A stretch of DNA of 64,000 nt, from assembly GCA_028283825.1 (NCBI GenBank), contig JAPWJW010000003.1:1201501-1265500 (forward strand), in the 5' to 3' direction. Under the pieces are notes generated by a model. That model was not told the origin of the DNA, did not search any database, and saw only the letters and a program-made list of their open reading frames with translations. This document shows positions 663-59,482 of this stretch, one piece after another. The stretch comes from Azospirillaceae bacterium. Its GTDB lineage: Bacteria; Pseudomonadota; Alphaproteobacteria; Azospirillales; Azospirillaceae. How positions within the stretch are numbered: position 1 is the first letter of the stretch; every line of letters begins with the position of its first letter. The position numbers and the translations under genes are program-made.

Positions 663-794
663 GCCCCGCCCCCAAAGATGGCACCGGCCCAAAACGGCCG
701 AGGCGCCGATGGTGACCCATCGACGCCCCGTCTGAAAACACCTGATGTGCCATCCGGCCAATCACACCGCCCAGGCGCCAACCGAGCGCAGCGG

Positions 795-893
795 GTAGGC
801 CCCGACCGGGGCCGCCGCGGCGTTTCGGGAAGCGTCAGCGGACTGAAACGCGAGGACAGCCAAATGGCCGGATAGCCATGCCGGCGCCTGAGG
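795..893 (-). repeat. Three-hairpin intergenic repeat, copy R1
   Basis: Read on the minus strand, the element starts nine bases after the nrdB stop codon. Hairpin 1 is ATGGCT-ATCC-GGCCAT (one T-G pair), hairpin 2 has the arms GCGTTTC and GAAACGC around a loop that begins AGTCC, and hairpin 3 is GGCCCC-GGTC-GGGGCC followed by TAC. The stems differ from the other copies, the loops do not. The rest of 663-901 shows no gene. Confidence 0.85.
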
Positions 894-15842: not shown

Positions 15843-16205
15843 CCTCAAGCGCCGGCGTCCCCATCCGGGGACTTGGCTATCCTCGCATTCCAGTCCGCTC
15901 ACGCTACCCGGAATGCTGCGGCGGACGCCGTCGCGTCCTTGTCGCTACGCTTCCTTTTCCTTCTTGTCCCTCAAGCGCCGGCGTCCCCATCCGGGGACTT
16001 GGCTATCCTCGCATTCCAGTCCGCTCACGCTACCCGGAATGCTGCGGCGGACGCCGTCGCGTCCTTGTCGCTACGCTTCCTTTTTTCCTTCTTGTCCCTC
16101 AAGCGCCGGCGTCCCCATCCGGGGACTTGGCTATCCTCGCATTCCAGTCCGCTCACGCTACCCGGAATGCTGCGGCGGACGCGGTCGCGTCCTTGGCGCT
16201 ACACT
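15843..16205 (+). repeat. Tandem array of three-hairpin repeats, copies R2a-c
   Basis: Three nearly identical units start at 15843, 15969 and 16097 (periods 126 and 128 bp; the difference is two T residues in the joint). Each carries hairpin 1 GTCCCC-ATCC-GGGGAC, hairpin 2 arms GCATTCC/GGAATGC and hairpin 3 GGACGC-CGTC-GCGTCC (GGTC loop in the third). Units are joined by pyrimidine-rich spacers of about 20 bp. The third unit is truncated after hairpin 3. The near-identity points to recent amplification. The array fills the gap between two convergent genes. Confidence 0.9.
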
Positions 16206-24356: not shown

Positions 24357-24488
24357 CGGCATTTGAGCGTAACCGCCCAAATGCCGCCCCTCAAACGCCG
24401 GGCGCCAGCATCCGCTGGCTTGGGCTTCCTCGCATTTCAGTCCGCTCATGCCCCCCGAAATGCTGCGGCGGCCCCGGTCGGGGCCTAC
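24357..24488 (+). repeat. Three-hairpin intergenic repeat, copy R3
   Basis: An outer hairpin with arms CGGCATTTG / CAAATGCCG (24357-24386) precedes the core at 24389. Core hairpins: GCCAGC-ATCC-GCTGGC, arms GCATTTC/GAAATGC, and GGCCCC-GGTC-GGGGCC followed by TAC. The terminal GGCCTAC supplies, on the minus strand, the stop codon of the neighbouring transporter gene. Confidence 0.88.
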
Positions 24489-25717
24489 AACGCCCCGATG
24501 TAGCCAAAAGCCAGCAGCCACAAGGCGGCCACGGCCAGCGAGACCAGCGTCATGGGGATGCCGCAGCGGGCGTGTTCGCGAAACCCCAGGGTGACGCCGG
24601 ATGCCGCCGCCCGCTCCACCGTGATGATGTTGGCCAGGCTGCCGGGCAGAGCCAAGTTGCCGGCCAGGGTGGAGAACAGGGCCAACGCGTACAGCGCCCC
24701 CTCCGGCGGGTGGGCCCACACCTTCATCAGCAGCACCACGGCCGGCACGTTGCCGATGGTGTTGCTGGCCAGCACGCTGAAGCCGGCCAGGAAGGGCAGC
24801 CGGTCCAGCGGCAGGCCGGCGGCCGTCAATTGGTCCACCAGCTGTGCCGGCAGGCCGGTGGCGGCCAGGGCGCCGGTCAGGATGAACAGGCCGGCGAACA
24901 GGGCCAGCAGGTGCCAATCCACCAGGCCCAGCATGTCGCGGCTGGCGAAGCGGCGGCTGACCAGCATGCAGCCGGCCACCCCCAGCACCGCCACGTCGCG
25001 GGGAAAGGGCGTGGTGAAGATCACCAGCAGCGCCACGGTACCGATCAGGCCCTTGGACAATTGCCAGGCCCGGGGCGATTCCGGCGGCACCTGGGGCGCC
25101 TGCGCCGATCCATTGGTCAGGCGTCCCCGCCACACCCGCGCCACCACCAGGTAGACCACACCCATGGACAGCAGCGCCGGCACGCCGCAGGCCAGCAGGA
25201 AGCGCCAGAAATCCAGGTGTCCGATCTGGCCGATCAGGATGTTCTGCGGGTTGCCGATGACGGTGGCGGCCGATCCGGCGTTGGCGGCACCCGCCAGCGC
25301 GATCAGGTAGGGCCGGGCGTCCAGCCCCCGCGCCCGCAGGCCGGCGCACAGCAGCGGCGTCATGGCGAACACCACCACGTCGTTGGCCAGCAGGGCCGAC
25401 AGCCCCCCGCCCACGCCGACCACCGCCGCCAGCAGCACCTCCGGCCTCAGGGGCACGTTGGCCAGCCGCCAGGCGCACCAGTCGTAAAAGCCGGACATGG
25501 CGAACTGGGCCGACAGGATCATCAGGCCCAGCAGGATGAACAGGGTGGGGAAATCGATGGCCTTGACGGCCGCCCCCTCCGTCATCGCCCCCGCCACCAT
25601 CAGGACGATGGCGCCCAGCATGGCGATGCCGGTGCGGTCCACCTTCAGCGGCGGCAACTGGCCCACGGCCATGCCCAGGTAGACGATGGCGAAGGTGATG
25701 AGGATCAGCACGGTCAT
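24485..25717 (-). CDS. SLC13/ArsB-type anion transporter
   Basis: The 410-residue protein has about 11 to 12 membrane helices and the ion-transporter superfamily layout: two inverted halves each with a hairpin and a conserved Asn/Pro-containing motif, GLSALLANDVVVFAMTPLLC with GNPQNILIGQ in the first half and VLASNTIGNVPAVVLLM with SLANIITVE in the second. The NDV...T and GNPQN motifs are those of SLC13, ArsB and NhaD relatives; dicarboxylate, sulphate or sodium exchange are all possible, and no neighbouring metabolic gene decides. Its stop codon lies inside the end of hairpin repeat R3, suggesting that the repeat inserted at or near the gene end. Confidence 0.85.
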   Translation of the reverse strand: MTVLILITFAIVYLGMAVGQLPPLKVDRTGIAMLGAIVLMVAGAMTEGAAVKAIDFPTLFILLGLMILSAQFAMSGFYDWCAWRLANVPLRPEVLLAAVVGVGGGLSALLANDVVVFAMTPLLCAGLRARGLDARPYLIALAGAANAGSAATVIGNPQNILIGQIGHLDFWRFLLACGVPALLSMGVVYLVVARVWRGRLTNGSAQAPQVPPESPRAWQLSKGLIGTVALLVIFTTPFPRDVAVLGVAGCMLVSRRFASRDMLGLVDWHLLALFAGLFILTGALAATGLPAQLVDQLTAAGLPLDRLPFLAGFSVLASNTIGNVPAVVLLMKVWAHPPEGALYALALFSTLAGNLALPGSLANIITVERAAASGVTLGFREHARCGIPMTLVSLAVAALWLLAFGYIGAL

Positions 25718-26903: not shown

Positions 26904-27059
26904 CATTTGATCTTGGCCGATCAAATGCCCCCTCAGGCGCCGGGCGCCAGCATCCGCTGGCTTGGGCTTCCTCGTTTTGCAGTCCACTTCATTCCCCGCA
27001 AAACTCCGGCGGCTGCGGTCGCAGCCTACAGCGGCACGAGTCGAAATCTTGTGCCGCTG
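26904..27059 (+). repeat. Three-hairpin intergenic repeat, copy R4 with outer hairpins
   Basis: Outer hairpin CATTTGATC / GATCAAATG (26904-26927), core from 26931 with GCCAGC-ATCC-GCTGGC, arms GTTTTGC/GCAAAAC, GGCTGC-GGTC-GCAGCC, and a terminal hairpin CAGCGGCAC / GTGCCGCTG (27029-27059). It lies between divergent genes, and its end is 30 bp upstream of the start codon of the small exoprotein gene, so it could form part of that leader. Nothing else is seen in 26819-27088. Confidence 0.9.
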
Positions 27060-31014: not shown

Positions 31015-31908
31015 ATGCGCGATCCCTACCAAATCCTTGGCATCAGCCGCACCGCGACCGCCGATGACATCAAGCAGGCGTATCGCCGCCTGGCCAAGCA
31101 GTACCACCCCGACCTGAACCCGGGCCGGGCCGATATCGAGCAGAAGTTCAAGGAAGCCAACAGCGCCCACAGCCTGTTGGCGGATCCGGACAAGCGCGCC
31201 CGTTTCGACCGGGGGGAGATCGACGCCACCGGGGCGGAGCGGCCGGACCGTTCCTTCCGCCGCGCCTATGCCGGCGCCGGCCGGTCGGGCGATTTCGACT
31301 TCGACGACGATCCCTTCGCCGACATCTTCGGCGCCGCGCGCAAGCGGGGCGGCCACGGGGTGAAGGCGCGGGGCAGCGATGTCGCCTATTCCGTCACCGT
31401 GACCTTCGTGGAAGCCTGCCTGGGCACCAAGCGGCGCCTGAACCTGTCCACCGGCAAAAGCATCGATGTCGCCCTGCCGCCCGGCACGCAGGACCAGCAG
31501 AAGTTGCGCCTGAAGGGCCAGGGGCTGCCGGGCCTGGGTGGTGCGGGTGCCGGCGACGCCATCGTGGAGGTGCACGTCACCCCCCACCCCTATTTCGTGC
31601 GGCGCGAGGACGACATCCACCTGGATGTGCCCGTGACCCTGCAAGAAGCCCTGCTGGGCGCCACCATCAAGGTGCCGACCCTGGATGGTGCCGTGCAGGT
31701 GAAGGTGCCCAAGGCCGCCAATTCCGGCACCACCCTGCGCCTGAAGGGCAAGGGCGTCGCCAACGCCGACCGCGGCACCCAGGGCGACCAGTACGTGAAG
31801 CTGACCGTCGTCCTGCCCGACCGGCCGGACGCGGAGCTGACCACCTTCATCGAGAAGTGGGGCAAGACCCACGACTACGACGTCCGCCGCAAGGCGGGGC
31901 TCATTTAG
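31015..31908 (+). CDS. DnaJ-family co-chaperone (CbpA-like)
   Basis: The 297-residue protein has an N-terminal J domain (about 1-66) with the HPD motif in KQYHPDLNPG, a Gly/Phe/Asp-rich linker with DFDFDDDPFADIFG, and the two beta-sandwich substrate-binding domains (GSDVAYSVTVTFVEACLG..., LDVPVTLQEALLGATIKVPT) without the cysteine-rich zinc finger of DnaJ. This is the type II (CbpA/DjlA-less) layout, which stimulates DnaK ATPase. The start ATGCGCGATCCCTACC at 31015 gives MRDPYQILGI, the expected beginning. It is followed six bases after the stop by hairpin repeat R5. Confidence 0.92.
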   Translation: MRDPYQILGISRTATADDIKQAYRRLAKQYHPDLNPGRADIEQKFKEANSAHSLLADPDKRARFDRGEIDATGAERPDRSFRRAYAGAGRSGDFDFDDDPFADIFGAARKRGGHGVKARGSDVAYSVTVTFVEACLGTKRRLNLSTGKSIDVALPPGTQDQQKLRLKGQGLPGLGGAGAGDAIVEVHVTPHPYFVRREDDIHLDVPVTLQEALLGATIKVPTLDGAVQVKVPKAANSGTTLRLKGKGVANADRGTQGDQYVKLTVVLPDRPDAELTTFIEKWGKTHDYDVRRKAGLI

Positions 31909-31914
31909 TTAGTC

Positions 31915-32044
31915 CCTCAAACGCCGGGCGCGGCCATCCGGCCGCTGGGCTTGTCCTCGGTTTTCAGTCCGCTGACGCTCCCCAAAAACCTCCGGCGGCT
32001 GCGGTCGCAGCCTACAGCCGCATGAGCCTTGGCTCATGCGGCTG
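31915..32044 (+). repeat. Three-hairpin intergenic repeat, copy R5
   Basis: Core from 31915 with GCGGCC-ATCC-GGCCGC, arms GGTTTT/AAAACC, GGCTGC-GGTC-GCAGCC, then a long terminal hairpin CAGCCGCATGAGCC / GGCTCATGCGGCTG (32015-32044, 14-bp stem). It fills the space between convergent genes, beginning six bases after the DnaJ-like stop. Confidence 0.9.
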
Positions 32045-37318: not shown

Positions 37319-37435
37319 CCTCAGACGCCGGGCGCCGGCATCCGCCGGCTTGGCTTCCTCGTTTTGCAGTCCAGTCCGTTCCCCGCAAAACTCCGGCGGC
37401 CACGGTCGTGGCCTACAACGGCGTGAACGCCGTTG
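37319..37435 (+). repeat. Three-hairpin intergenic repeat, copy R6
   Basis: Core from 37319 with GCCGGC-ATCC-GCCGGC, arms GTTTTGC/GCAAAAC, GGCCAC-GGTC-GTGGCC, then the terminal hairpin CAACGGCGT / ACGCCGTTG (37416-37435). It starts six bases after the aroC stop. Confidence 0.9.
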
Positions 37436-37503: not shown

Positions 37504-37516
37504 CCGAACCGATAGG
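37504..37516 (-). promoter_or_regulatory. 3' UTR segment complementary to the 5' UTR of the same gene (copy 1)
   Basis: On the mRNA strand this reads CCTATCGGTTCGG, five bases after the stop codon. It is the exact complement of CCGAACCGATAGG in the leader of the same gene (37987-37999), which includes the AGG of the ribosome binding site. Confidence 0.6.
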
Positions 37517-37521
37517 GCCGA

Positions 37522-37977
37522 TCAGCGGCCCTGGATGGTGATGGTCAGGGTGTCGGTGTAGCTGCCAGCGACGGCCTGGGCGTTGGCGGGCACGGTCACG
37601 GCGATGGTGGCCTGCTTGGCGAACTGGGCGGAGGAGCGGCTGACGTTGACGCTGCTGCCGCTGGACTGGCCGTCGTAAATGGGGGTGTAGCTGATGGGCT
37701 GGGCGCCATTGGCCGAGGACTTCAGGTTGGCGCCGTTGGCCGAGGAGACCGAGATGGTGTAGCCCGCGCCGTCGTTGCAGGTCTCCACCGCCGTGCCGAC
37801 GGTGACGTTGGTCGAACCCGTCAGGATGTTCAGCTGCGCGCCGGCGTCGGTGACCGCGATGGTGCAGGTCTGGGCGACGGTGCCGTTCAACTGCACGGTG
37901 CCGGAGGTGGCGGCGAAGGCGGGGGCGGCGACCAGGGCGGCGGCGAAAACGGCGGCGGCGGCGATGCGGCGGATCAT
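37522..37977 (-). CDS. Spore-coat-protein-U/fimbrial-like exoprotein, paralogue 1
   Basis: A 151-residue exported protein: signal peptide MIRRIAAAAVFAAALVAAPAFA, then an Ig-like beta domain with GTVQLNGTVAQTCTIAV, VGTAVETCNDGAGYTISV (the two conserved Cys) and the C-terminal donor-like strand YTDTLTITIQG. This is the SCPU domain found in secreted chaperone-usher pilus subunits. No usher or chaperone gene is in the window, so if it is a pilin the assembly genes are elsewhere. A paralogue of the same length lies directly upstream on the strand. The leader contains TAGGAATT as ribosome site. Confidence 0.85.
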   Translation of the reverse strand: MIRRIAAAAVFAAALVAAPAFAATSGTVQLNGTVAQTCTIAVTDAGAQLNILTGSTNVTVGTAVETCNDGAGYTISVSSANGANLKSSANGAQPISYTPIYDGQSSGSSVNVSRSSAQFAKQATIAVTVPANAQAVAGSYTDTLTITIQGR

Positions 37978-37986
37978 GGCGAAATT

Positions 37987-37999
37987 CCTATCGGTTCGG
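37987..37999 (-). promoter_or_regulatory. 5' UTR segment overlapping the ribosome site, copy 1
   Basis: On the mRNA strand CCGAACCGATAGG ends in the Shine-Dalgarno AGG, ten bases before the ATG. The same 13-mer occurs in the leader of paralogue 2. It can pair over 13 bp with the segment after the stop codon. Confidence 0.6.
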
Positions 38000-38233
38000 T
38001 GGGCTTGTTGCCCGGCTGTTTAATGCTTCCGATATAAGCAATTCGGATGCCAGGTTCGGTGGCATAGCGGGCCATTTTTGTAACTGATTGAAAATCATCA
38101 CTTATCTGTAAGATGGACTTTGCCGTCACGGCACAGGCGTCCACCGCCATGGCGATACGCAACAGTGCCGAAATGACAAGCTCAATGAAATCAATGCATT
38201 ACAAGATGCATTCAGCCATGGTCCGAACAGCAC

Positions 38234-38265
38234 AAAGGGGCGGCCCCGGCTGGGACCGCCCCTTC
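38234..38265 (-). terminator. Terminator-like hairpin after spore-coat-U-like paralogue 2
   Basis: On the minus strand AAGGGGCGG pairs with CCGCCCCTT (stem interrupted in the middle), followed by TGTG. The weak T-content makes it a moderate candidate. Confidence 0.55.
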
Positions 38266-38275
38266 GCGAACTTAA

Positions 38276-38285
38276 CCGAACCGAT
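38276..38285 (-). promoter_or_regulatory. 3' UTR segment complementary to the 5' UTR of the same gene (copy 2)
   Basis: On the mRNA strand ATCGGTTCGG, eight bases after the stop codon, is the exact complement of CCGAACCGAT in the leader at 38784-38793. Confidence 0.55.
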
Positions 38286-38293
38286 GCGGCGGC

Positions 38294-38770
38294 TTACTTG
38301 CCGGCGATGGTGACCGTCAGGGTGTCGGCGTAGCTGCCGGCGATGGCCTGGGCGCTGGCCGGAACCGTCACGTACATGGCGGCGGTCTTGGCGAACTGCG
38401 CGCCCGACCGGGTGACCGTGAAGCTGGAGCCGGAGCCGTTGGTGCCGTCGTAGGTGGTGGTGTAGTTGATGGCCTGGGCGCCGGTGGCCGAGGACTTCAG
38501 CGAACCGTTGTTGGCGGAGGCGACGGTGATGGTGTAGCCCGCACCGTCGTTGCAGTTCTCAACCACCGAACCGACCTGCACGTTGCTGGAGCCGGCCAGG
38601 ATGTTCAGCGTGGCGTTGCTGTCGGTGACGGCCACGGTGCAGGTCAGCGCCACGGTGCTGTTCAGCTGCACGGTACCCGAGGTGCCGGTGGTGGCGGCGA
38701 AGGACGGGGCGGCGGCGAAAGCGGCGAAGACAACGGCGGCAGTGGCGGCGGCAGCGATGCGGCGGATCAT
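38294..38770 (-). CDS. Spore-coat-protein-U/fimbrial-like exoprotein, paralogue 2
   Basis: A 158-residue paralogue of the downstream gene: signal peptide MIRRIAAAATAAVVFAAFAAAPSFA, conserved Cys in VALTCTVAV and VVENCNDGAGYTITV, and the final strand YADTLTVTIAGK. The two proteins align along their whole length with many substitutions, so the duplication is not recent. Yet the leader 13-mer CCGAACCGATAGG is unchanged. The ATG at 38770 begins exactly the same MIRRIAAAA as the paralogue. Major pilin-like or biofilm surface role is inferred from the domain only. Confidence 0.85.
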   Translation of the reverse strand: MIRRIAAAATAAVVFAAFAAAPSFAATTGTSGTVQLNSTVALTCTVAVTDSNATLNILAGSSNVQVGSVVENCNDGAGYTITVASANNGSLKSSATGAQAINYTTTYDGTNGSGSSFTVTRSGAQFAKTAAMYVTVPASAQAIAGSYADTLTVTIAGK

Positions 38771-51867: not shown

Positions 51868-51979
51868 GGAGCGAAGCGACAAGGACGCGACCACGTCCGC
51901 CGGACCTTTCCGGGGAACGAAGTGGACTGGAAAGGGAGGATGAGGCAAGGGCCCGGATGGGCCCGCCCGCCGTCTGAGG
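51868..51979 (-). repeat. Three-hairpin intergenic repeat, copy R7
   Basis: Read on the minus strand: GGGCCC-ATCC-GGGCCC, arms CCTTTCC/GGAAAGG, and GGACGT-GGTC-GCGTCC (one T-G pair), then a tail TTGTCGCTTCGCTCC like that of the tandem array. It lies tail-to-tail with the LysR gene. Confidence 0.85.
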
Positions 51980-59319: not shown

Positions 59320-59482
59320 ACGGTATTTGAACGTGACCGTTCAAATACCGTCCCTCAGGCGCCGGGCGCGACCATCCGGTCGCTTGGGCTTCCTCGCTTC
59401 CCGGTCCGCCTTTGGCTCCCCGGAAAGCTCCGGCGGCCCCAGTCGGGGCCTACGGCGGCACGATCAAAATTTCGTGCCGCTG
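59320..59482 (+). repeat. Three-hairpin intergenic repeat, copy R8 with long outer hairpins
   Basis: An outer hairpin ACGGTATTTGAACG / CGTTCAAATACCGT (59320-59351, perfect 14-bp stem, TGAC loop) begins six bases after the sufA stop. The core follows at 59353: GCGACC-ATCC-GGTCGC, arms GCTTCCC/GGAAAGC (one mismatch), GGCCCC-AGTC-GGGGCC, and a terminal hairpin CGGCGGCACGA / TCGTGCCGCTG (59453-59482). It fills the gap between convergent genes. Confidence 0.92.

Follow-up and report, generated by a model that had tools for sequence, protein, structure and literature searches.

We describe a family of intergenic elements, each a row of hairpins, which we consider probably to be a REP-like, mosaic and non-autonomous family of mobile DNA whose stems turn over by recombination. 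According to this explanation, the hairpin row H0 to H4, in which loops and joints are fixed and stems vary freely, would be read by its shape and its single-stranded motifs. The element would spread to the 3′ ends of transcription units, or survive better there than elsewhere. Hairpins in place would mostly be kept paired, and whole stems would be swapped by recombination between copies or between species. The source genome, that of a nitrogen-fixing soil bacterium, and six relatives are taken to belong to the genus Nitrospirillum of the family Azospirillaceae.

Within the window, that is the whole stretch of 64,000 nucleotides that was analysed, an earlier note had recognised about ten copies with a common layout of loops and variable stems, and had proposed a covariance model. 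We built such a model from 73 copies of the source genome and ran it on the window. Ten strong matches were obtained (97.1-116.4 bits, E 1.1e-24 to 2.5e-20), all at the positions first recognised (Table 1), and the read-out and the alignment of the ten copies agreed with the stems, loops and layout initially described. Because nine of the ten window copies are among the 73 training copies of the model, these scores are high by construction. The informative point is that nothing else in the window scores near the ten, the next-best match reaching 13.3 bits (E 0.22). The genes before R5 and R6 end at 31908 and 37313; R5 starts 6 nt past the stop codon of the former and carries H4 on its 3′ side, and R6 starts 5 nt past that of the latter.

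The members of the tandem trio R2a-c (15843-16196) are 99-100% identical to one another, with start-to-start distances of 126 and 128. Similar arrays occur in two sister species, with three copies at G002:C4:249665-249997 and four at G006:C1:201032-201483, and the stems of these two arrays differ through paired changes. At positions 37504-38765 of the window, adjacent stretches repeat with 72-79% identity at a spacing of about 775, perhaps reflecting a duplicated small minus-strand gene.

Table 1. Element copies in the window, with covariance model scores, and hairpins of copy R4.
Feature	Positions	Strand	Score (bits)	Description
R1	794..893	-	97.1	copy
R2a	15843..15942	+	104.1	tandem trio with spacers, first member
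R2b	15969..16068	+	104.1	tandem trio
R2c	16097..16196	+	105.1	tandem trio
R3	24389..24489	+	109.2	copy, H0 hairpin on 5′ side
R4	26931..27030	+	109.9	core with H1-H3
R4 H0	26904..26927	+		optional 5′ hairpin, CATTTGATC - loop TTGGCC - GATCAAATG; DNA fold; module before other copies too
R4 H1	26946..26961	+		GCCAGC - ATCC - GCTGGC
R4 H2	26974..27004	+		GTTTTGC ... GCAAAAC, loop starts AGTCC
R4 H3	27011..27026	+		GGCTGC - GGTC - GCAGCC
R4 H4	27029..27059	+		optional 3′ hairpin, CAGCGGCACGAG ... CTTGTGCCGCTG; DNA fold
R5	31915..32016	+	116.4	copy
R6	37319..37417	+	108.6	copy
R7	51879..51979	-	112	copy, different 3′ end type (CCTTGTCGCTTCGCTCC)
R8	59353..59454	+	98.6	copy, H0 hairpin on 5′ side

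The core of the element shows a constant order. Its 5′ part reads CCTCA-NN-CG[CG]C-GGGC, followed by H1 (6 bp, loop ATCC) and by TTG[GC]CT.. - TCCTC; its 3′ part consists of H2 (7 bp, loop AGTCC...CTCCCC), TCCGGC, H3 (6 bp, loop GGTC) and CCTA[CG]. As H3 of R4 is followed by TAC, the foot of this copy reads GTAGG on the opposite strand. Among 83 full copies of the source genome, the 3′ foot was CCTAC in 40, CCTAG in 16, CCTTG in 11 and of another type in eight, the last eight feet not being located by the script. The limits first given for the element hold for the core but not for its outer extent, since H0 lies upstream or H4 downstream of many copies. Both are contained in the piece 26904-27059 (z-score -5.65, DNA fold). 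Within 46 nt upstream, 26 of the 83 copies have a perfectly paired hairpin with a stem of 7 bp or more, as compared to 0-3 in five rounds of shuffling. Sixteen of these 26 hairpins contain TTTGA or TTGAT and belong to the H0 type; by eye, the remaining ones mostly resemble terminators of the upstream gene. An H4-like hairpin was found downstream of 40 of the 83 copies, as compared to 0-2 in five shuffled rounds.

The 6-bp stem described for H1 was recovered but proved incomplete. A lower stem has to be added (columns 10-11 with 37-38), which covaries (CG 62, GC 9, other 2 in the 73-copy alignment). An outer stem CGCCG/CGGCG around H1 and H2 was predicted by RNAalifold and also appeared in the single-sequence DNA fold. 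We set it aside in favour of the lower H1 stem because the CGGC variant breaks it at its variable position (pair 11-83 is GG, one of ten copies) and pairs instead with CTTGC (columns 10-38, 73-copy alignment). A second H2 type (GCTGCGCCCT[TG]CGGTGCTCGC and similar) substitutes for the usual H2 in some copies (L291, L296); at G002:C4:161357 and its G006 orthologue, the replacement is seen between orthologous sites.

The covariation of the stems, already claimed from the window alone, was clearly visible in the 73-copy alignment, drawn from 81 full hits after removal of two straddling piece borders, five below 45 bits and one trio member. The covariation score was 0.521 as compared to 0.139 after shuffling, and none of 500 shuffles scored as high. 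Stem cells were paired in 96.5% of 1667 cases (74.9% shuffled), and only 35.7-57.1% of them paired when the partners were slid by 1-3 columns. Changes on both sides affected 315 cells, versus 88.8 in shuffled alignments, and the proposed stem pairs were the top-ranking covarying column pairs. Coarser counts gave weak signals, with 16 pairs showing any both-side change versus 14.0 shuffled (31/500) and 40 further pair types versus 36.5 (22/500). The first alignment, made of the ten window copies, showed a both-side change in 13 of 26 predicted pairs. Among 144 copies from six genomes, the whole hairpin was Watson-Crick paired in 99 for H1, 79 for H2 and 123 for H3. In 77 source-genome copies, the stem distance was unrelated to the unpaired distance (mean stem difference of 0.28-0.32 in every bin), which fits either free reassortment or saturation. 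The pairwise distances of H1, H2 and H3 in the same copies were uncorrelated (r -0.03 to 0.08), as would fit three hairpins that reassort freely among copies.

The source genome carries 83 full copies in 800 kb of one contig, or 104 per Mb, as refined from 89 nhmmer hits. With a sequence-only model made from the ten copies, the best 150 of 19417 first candidates in the source genome were scored and all were full-length or nearly so. A pattern for H3 with two free letters per arm gave 60 places in this genome and none in the reversed control. The plasmid collection searched for the element gave no match. None of the 89 hits lies inside a gene, meaning that more than half of it would be covered by a gene called with a custom codon-usage script. 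A full copy was present in 42 of 105 convergent, 30 of 356 co-directional and 3 of 112 divergent gaps. When the upstream gene was co-oriented, 42 of 65 copies started within 15 nt of its stop codon, whereas 12.3 were expected from random placement within their own gaps (sd 2.8, maximum 25 in 2000 draws).

The strong preference for convergent gaps and the avoidance of divergent ones would suit a family of transcription terminators. However, no regular T-run was seen by eye 3′ of the hairpins, and canonical terminators are no less frequent in gaps with a copy than in the other gaps. The counts were 18 of 43 versus 17 of 62 for convergent gaps (P 0.14) and 9 of 35 versus 21 of 321 for co-directional gaps (P 0.001). 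Substitution for terminators was not supported, as terminators are not lacking where a copy is present, and we give hardly any credit to a terminator family.

The tight spacing behind stop codons argues for a different role, that of a cis-acting 3′-UTR RNA whose hairpins would protect the messenger end or slow ribosomes, the RNA fold being selected in place. Such effects, shielding of messenger ends or slowing of ribosomes, have been reported for E. coli REPs. Work cited in the RepRanger paper (PMC12306157), as summarised in an excerpt of it, also reports that REPs less than 16 nt from a stop codon lower translation. Several observations are nevertheless difficult to reconcile with an RNA. Eighteen of the 83 copies have no co-oriented upstream gene, and eight of the 23 copies lying more than 15 nt from the stop codon are located behind an intrinsic terminator. 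The presence of the element differs among sister species, as detailed below. Moreover, an RNA read from the gene strand should tolerate G-U over A-C, but 11 G-T cells were counted against 22 A-C cells (15 pairs, in the 96 of 113 hits with fewer than 12 gaps). The statement of the earlier note that non-Watson-Crick cells do not decide the strand therefore stands; they are not decisive for the strand of action and speak slightly against gene-strand RNA. Because the wobble cells show no gene-strand bias and copies occur behind terminators, DNA fits better than RNA. The lack of a G-T excess over A-C, the copies without a co-oriented upstream gene and the gain and loss between species all point to DNA as what would be read, and we regard a cis-acting RNA as somewhat unlikely. 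Both readings could also be true, as may hold for E. coli REPs.

Sister species differ in their set of copies. Syntenic pieces of five of them contained 10, 2, 2, 2 and 2 full copies (19-26 per Mb). Other regions of sister species were denser, with 35 and 37 hits in 400 kb, and each of six other genomes of the genus gave at least 99 matches. Thirty of 34 source copies could be anchored in G006, and no copy was detected there for 24 of the 30, four of these 24 facing gaps of 0.5-4 kb and hence not being clean absences. G002 and G006 are about 94% identical. They share 23 of 35 and 22 of 37 hits, one of the 23 shared G002 hits being doubtful as it rests on a 30-kb span; among the non-shared hits, 5 and 5 are absent, and 7 and 10 have no anchor. 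Nine of the ten absences were aligned. Five are clean gaps at gene ends. In two others, an internal deletion has left the CCTCAGG start and H3 in place; of the remaining two, one is a degenerate remnant and the other is unclear. A filled site of G006 (C1, 900.1 kb) is empty in both G002 and G003. No target-site duplication or terminal inverted repeats, the marks of a MITE, were recognised in the nine aligned cases, where the species differ by about 6% and the element ends are fuzzy, and neither was recognised at the C1 900.1 kb site. That no movement as such was observed, and that the element ends are not sharply defined, weigh against mobile DNA.

Orthologous sites were used to study how stems change. 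Starting from 56 orthologous pairs, 47 passed a gap filter and 27 were left after removal of tandem arrays and of five crossed pairs from a site with two copies; the 27 include several from the same locus, which are not independent. In these pairs, stem changes were one-sided in 34 cases and two-sided in 64, and Watson-Crick pairing was preserved in 62 of the latter. One-sided stem changes were rarer than unpaired changes, a point in favour of a selected RNA fold. Three kinds of site were seen: nearly identical ones, those decaying through one-sided changes, and swapped ones. In five pairs from three swapped sites, whose flanks are 93-98% identical, 10-15 of 40-42 stem letters are different. 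Each of these swapped pairs has 5-7 two-sided changes and at most one one-sided change, and unpaired letters differ at only 3-6 of 54-56 positions. The commonest two-sided change, C-G to G-C (58 cells, from pairs that are not independent), cannot go through a G-U wobble. The slow sites could be accounted for by point mutations that were compensated later. The fast sites need either re-insertion or the transfer of ready-made stems, from copy to copy or from species to species.

At locus A (G006:C1:308101), the element is found in all seven species with a common left junction, CTGACTA[AG]AGC(C)CCTCA. Overall, 98.2% of 114 cells are paired, eight of 19 pairs have changed on both sides, no cell has changed on one side only, and none of 500 shuffles reached the covariation score. 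Seventeen of 38 stem columns vary, versus 10 of 58 gap-free unpaired columns, and H1 occurs in three versions, H2 and H3 in several. At this one old site, paired change has occurred in place. Such conserved pairing counts in favour of a cis-acting RNA, and persistence in seven of seven species would also fit a host function. One stem set is common to G005 and G006 and another to G002 and G004. Since the closest three species by the 6-kb pieces compared are G002, G003 and G006, the stem sets cut across kinship, indicating that alleles have moved; the flanks are 93% identical to those of G004 and G005, closer than the 6-kb pieces. Stem versions common to species against kinship, together with the clusters of changes in both arms, therefore suggest that ready-made stems are exchanged.

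Two other origins of the paired changes were considered. Selection on the fold might be absent altogether, the arms staying paired by template switching in hairpins and the loops being alike through recent common origin. The changes at locus A without wobble intermediates or one-sided cells would agree with this, as would the nearly identical orthologous pairs, in which unpaired letters drift and stems hardly change. However, copying from arm to arm spreads mutations singly and should proceed no faster than they arise, which is at odds with the five swapped pairs. In addition, the matches listed from other orders show the same loops and pairing, which a recent common origin does not account for. 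We find this scenario highly improbable. The apparent swaps might also come from independent re-insertion into the same gap. This is suggested by locus B, where the G005 copy is in the opposite orientation and G001 has no copy; the six filled species show six stem sets there. Re-insertion is contradicted by the junction common to all species at locus A and by three sister pairs (p05, p06 and p08) that keep the exact 5′ junction despite different stems. We consider re-insertion to be improbable as a source of the swaps.

If recombination moves the stems, converted tracts could leave a trace in the neighbouring letters. Next to swapped H3 stems, unpaired letters differ at 5 of 39 positions versus 14 of 229, an about twofold difference in small numbers, as a converted tract would give. 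Around swapped H1 and H2 stems, the unpaired difference is hardly raised (7.2% versus 5.2% for H1, 9.3% versus 8.8% for H2), which speaks against recombination over a long conversion tract, as this should raise it. Conversion of the whole element from one recent donor was rejected for one swapped copy, the best other copy in its genome being 92% identical among the best 40 of 266 candidates. Regarding the earlier claim that constant loops with compensating stems mean selection on a folded nucleic acid, both the covariation and the importance of the fold are borne out. Compensating stems alone do not prove selection in place, because orthologous stems change in clusters and in both arms at once. 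More generally, recombination may spread covariation from one repeat copy to others, and covariation alone is no proof of a functional RNA.

The occurrence of the element in alphaproteobacteria is wide and patchy. Of 386 genomes drawn evenly from the class, 15 matched, including the source genome with 180 places, and the reversed control gave none throughout. The H1 module, searched with free arms in named genomes, was found in at least 120 stretches (80 named). The matches listed include Azospirillaceae, Magnetospirillum, Telmatospirillum and Novispirillum, Acetobacteraceae (Roseomonas, Falsiroseomonas, Roseococcus, Rhodovarius) and Sphingomonadales (Sphingorhabdus, Aquisediminimonas, uncultured Sphingomonadaceae), the family placement of these genera being the one that we presume. 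Among the matches listed, the module with paired arms is seen in Rhodospirillales and Sphingomonadales. The unspecified four-letter H1 arms are perfectly complementary in 124 of 136 listed matches versus 15.9 after arm shuffling, several matches coming from the same genome and thus not being independent. By eye, and among the matches listed, other lineages have different hairpins 3′ of H1.

In other alphaproteobacteria, the H1 module was also seen about 10-43 nt behind a tmRNA (L213 6947-7454) and tRNA (L233 3224-3355, L302). Two loci (L305, L309) show T runs right before the CCTCA start, and tandem copies with a common H1 and partly different downstream hairpins.

A broader reading would see class-wide modular hairpin cassettes, read only by their fold and loops and blind to stem sequence, the stems being a rapidly exchanged and mostly paired barcode rewritten in place. 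It would need a non-Y1 recombination activity recognising folded single-stranded DNA at transcript ends, and we judge it unlikely. Whatever the reading, the family offers scores to hundreds of natural variants per genome, with invariant loops and joints as opposed to free stems. The orthologous sites of seven species, filled and empty, make it possible to separate what is read from what merely stays paired. Three questions thereby become testable: whether DNA or RNA is read, which mover acts, and why the elements lie behind stop codons.

The element was compared with known systems. No Rfam family reached its gathering cut-off in the window, as the earlier note had proposed to check, the best sub-threshold match being xerDC (15.6 bits versus 72.5). 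In 18 of 120 outside loci, Rfam gave five matches (tmRNA, FMN, tRNA), none of them on the element. No published description of the element was found in the open-licence literature searched. The remark that the layout has no known name is thus upheld for the layout; it does not extend to the behaviour, which is that of REP-type repeats.

Repeats of this type occur commonly in bacteria. REP sequences, their BIMEs and REPINs are moved by RAYT transposases, and the Y1 family includes the enzymes that move GTAG REPs. The Y1 transposase domain including the RAYT kind (PF01797) was found in none of the seven genomes of the genus, whereas 5 of 14 controls were positive, E. coli among them. Mobilisation by a resident RAYT was therefore rejected for these genomes. 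Outside the genus, 3 of 14 element-bearing genomes contain PF01797.

The element resembles REPs, BIMEs and REPINs as a set of many short intergenic palindromes near 3′ ends and in convergent gaps, with copy numbers that differ between relatives. High copy number, intergenic location and closeness to 3′ ends are features that it has in common with RAYT-mobilised REPs. It differs from them in being a row of up to five unlike hairpins rather than one palindrome or inverted pair, in its nearly free stems and in the lack of a Y1 transposase in the seven genus genomes. Its H3 has a GTAG-type foot on the opposite strand in part of the copies (CCTAC, 40 of 83); this foot is not fixed, whereas RAYT-mobilised REPs require GTAG or GTGG in essentially all copies. 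As in intrinsic terminators, GC-rich hairpins stand at gene ends; unlike them, the element has no regular T-run and does not replace terminators. RIME and ABC elements are mosaic intergenic palindromes of Rhizobiales, and the element is likewise mosaic, intergenic and palindromic, a likeness of description rather than of sequence.

In the literature on REPs, Nunvar et al. 2010 (PMC2817692), in the part drawn on here, list GTAG REPs and found RAYT homologues that satisfied their criteria in gammaproteobacteria only. Alphaproteobacterial REPs are reported so far without a known mover in excerpts of Di Nocera et al. 2013 (PMC3733652), which describe CGTC REPs of this class without a transposase. 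The REPs reported in that work mainly occupy gaps between convergent or unidirectional genes; in the two species diagrammed, most convergent ones are less than 20 bp from both 3′ ends. The element and the CGTC REPs thus have in common their occurrence in alphaproteobacteria and their position close to the 3′ ends of convergent genes, the latter REPs having no dedicated transposase according to the same excerpts. There, CGTC REPs are single stems of 8-9 bp at a CGTC (TGTC, CCTC) tag, nearly always with A-T pairs first. None of the hairpins H0-H4 fits this description, the two being set apart by the text in those excerpts of PMC3733652 rather than by letters. The CCTC of the element is separated by 11 letters from the GC-rich H1 stem, which opens with a G-C or an A-T pair. 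Because of its row of unlike hairpins, its nearly free stems and its lack of a fixed tag, the element is set apart from both GTAG and CGTC REPs, and we file it as a REP-type repeat outside these two described superfamilies.
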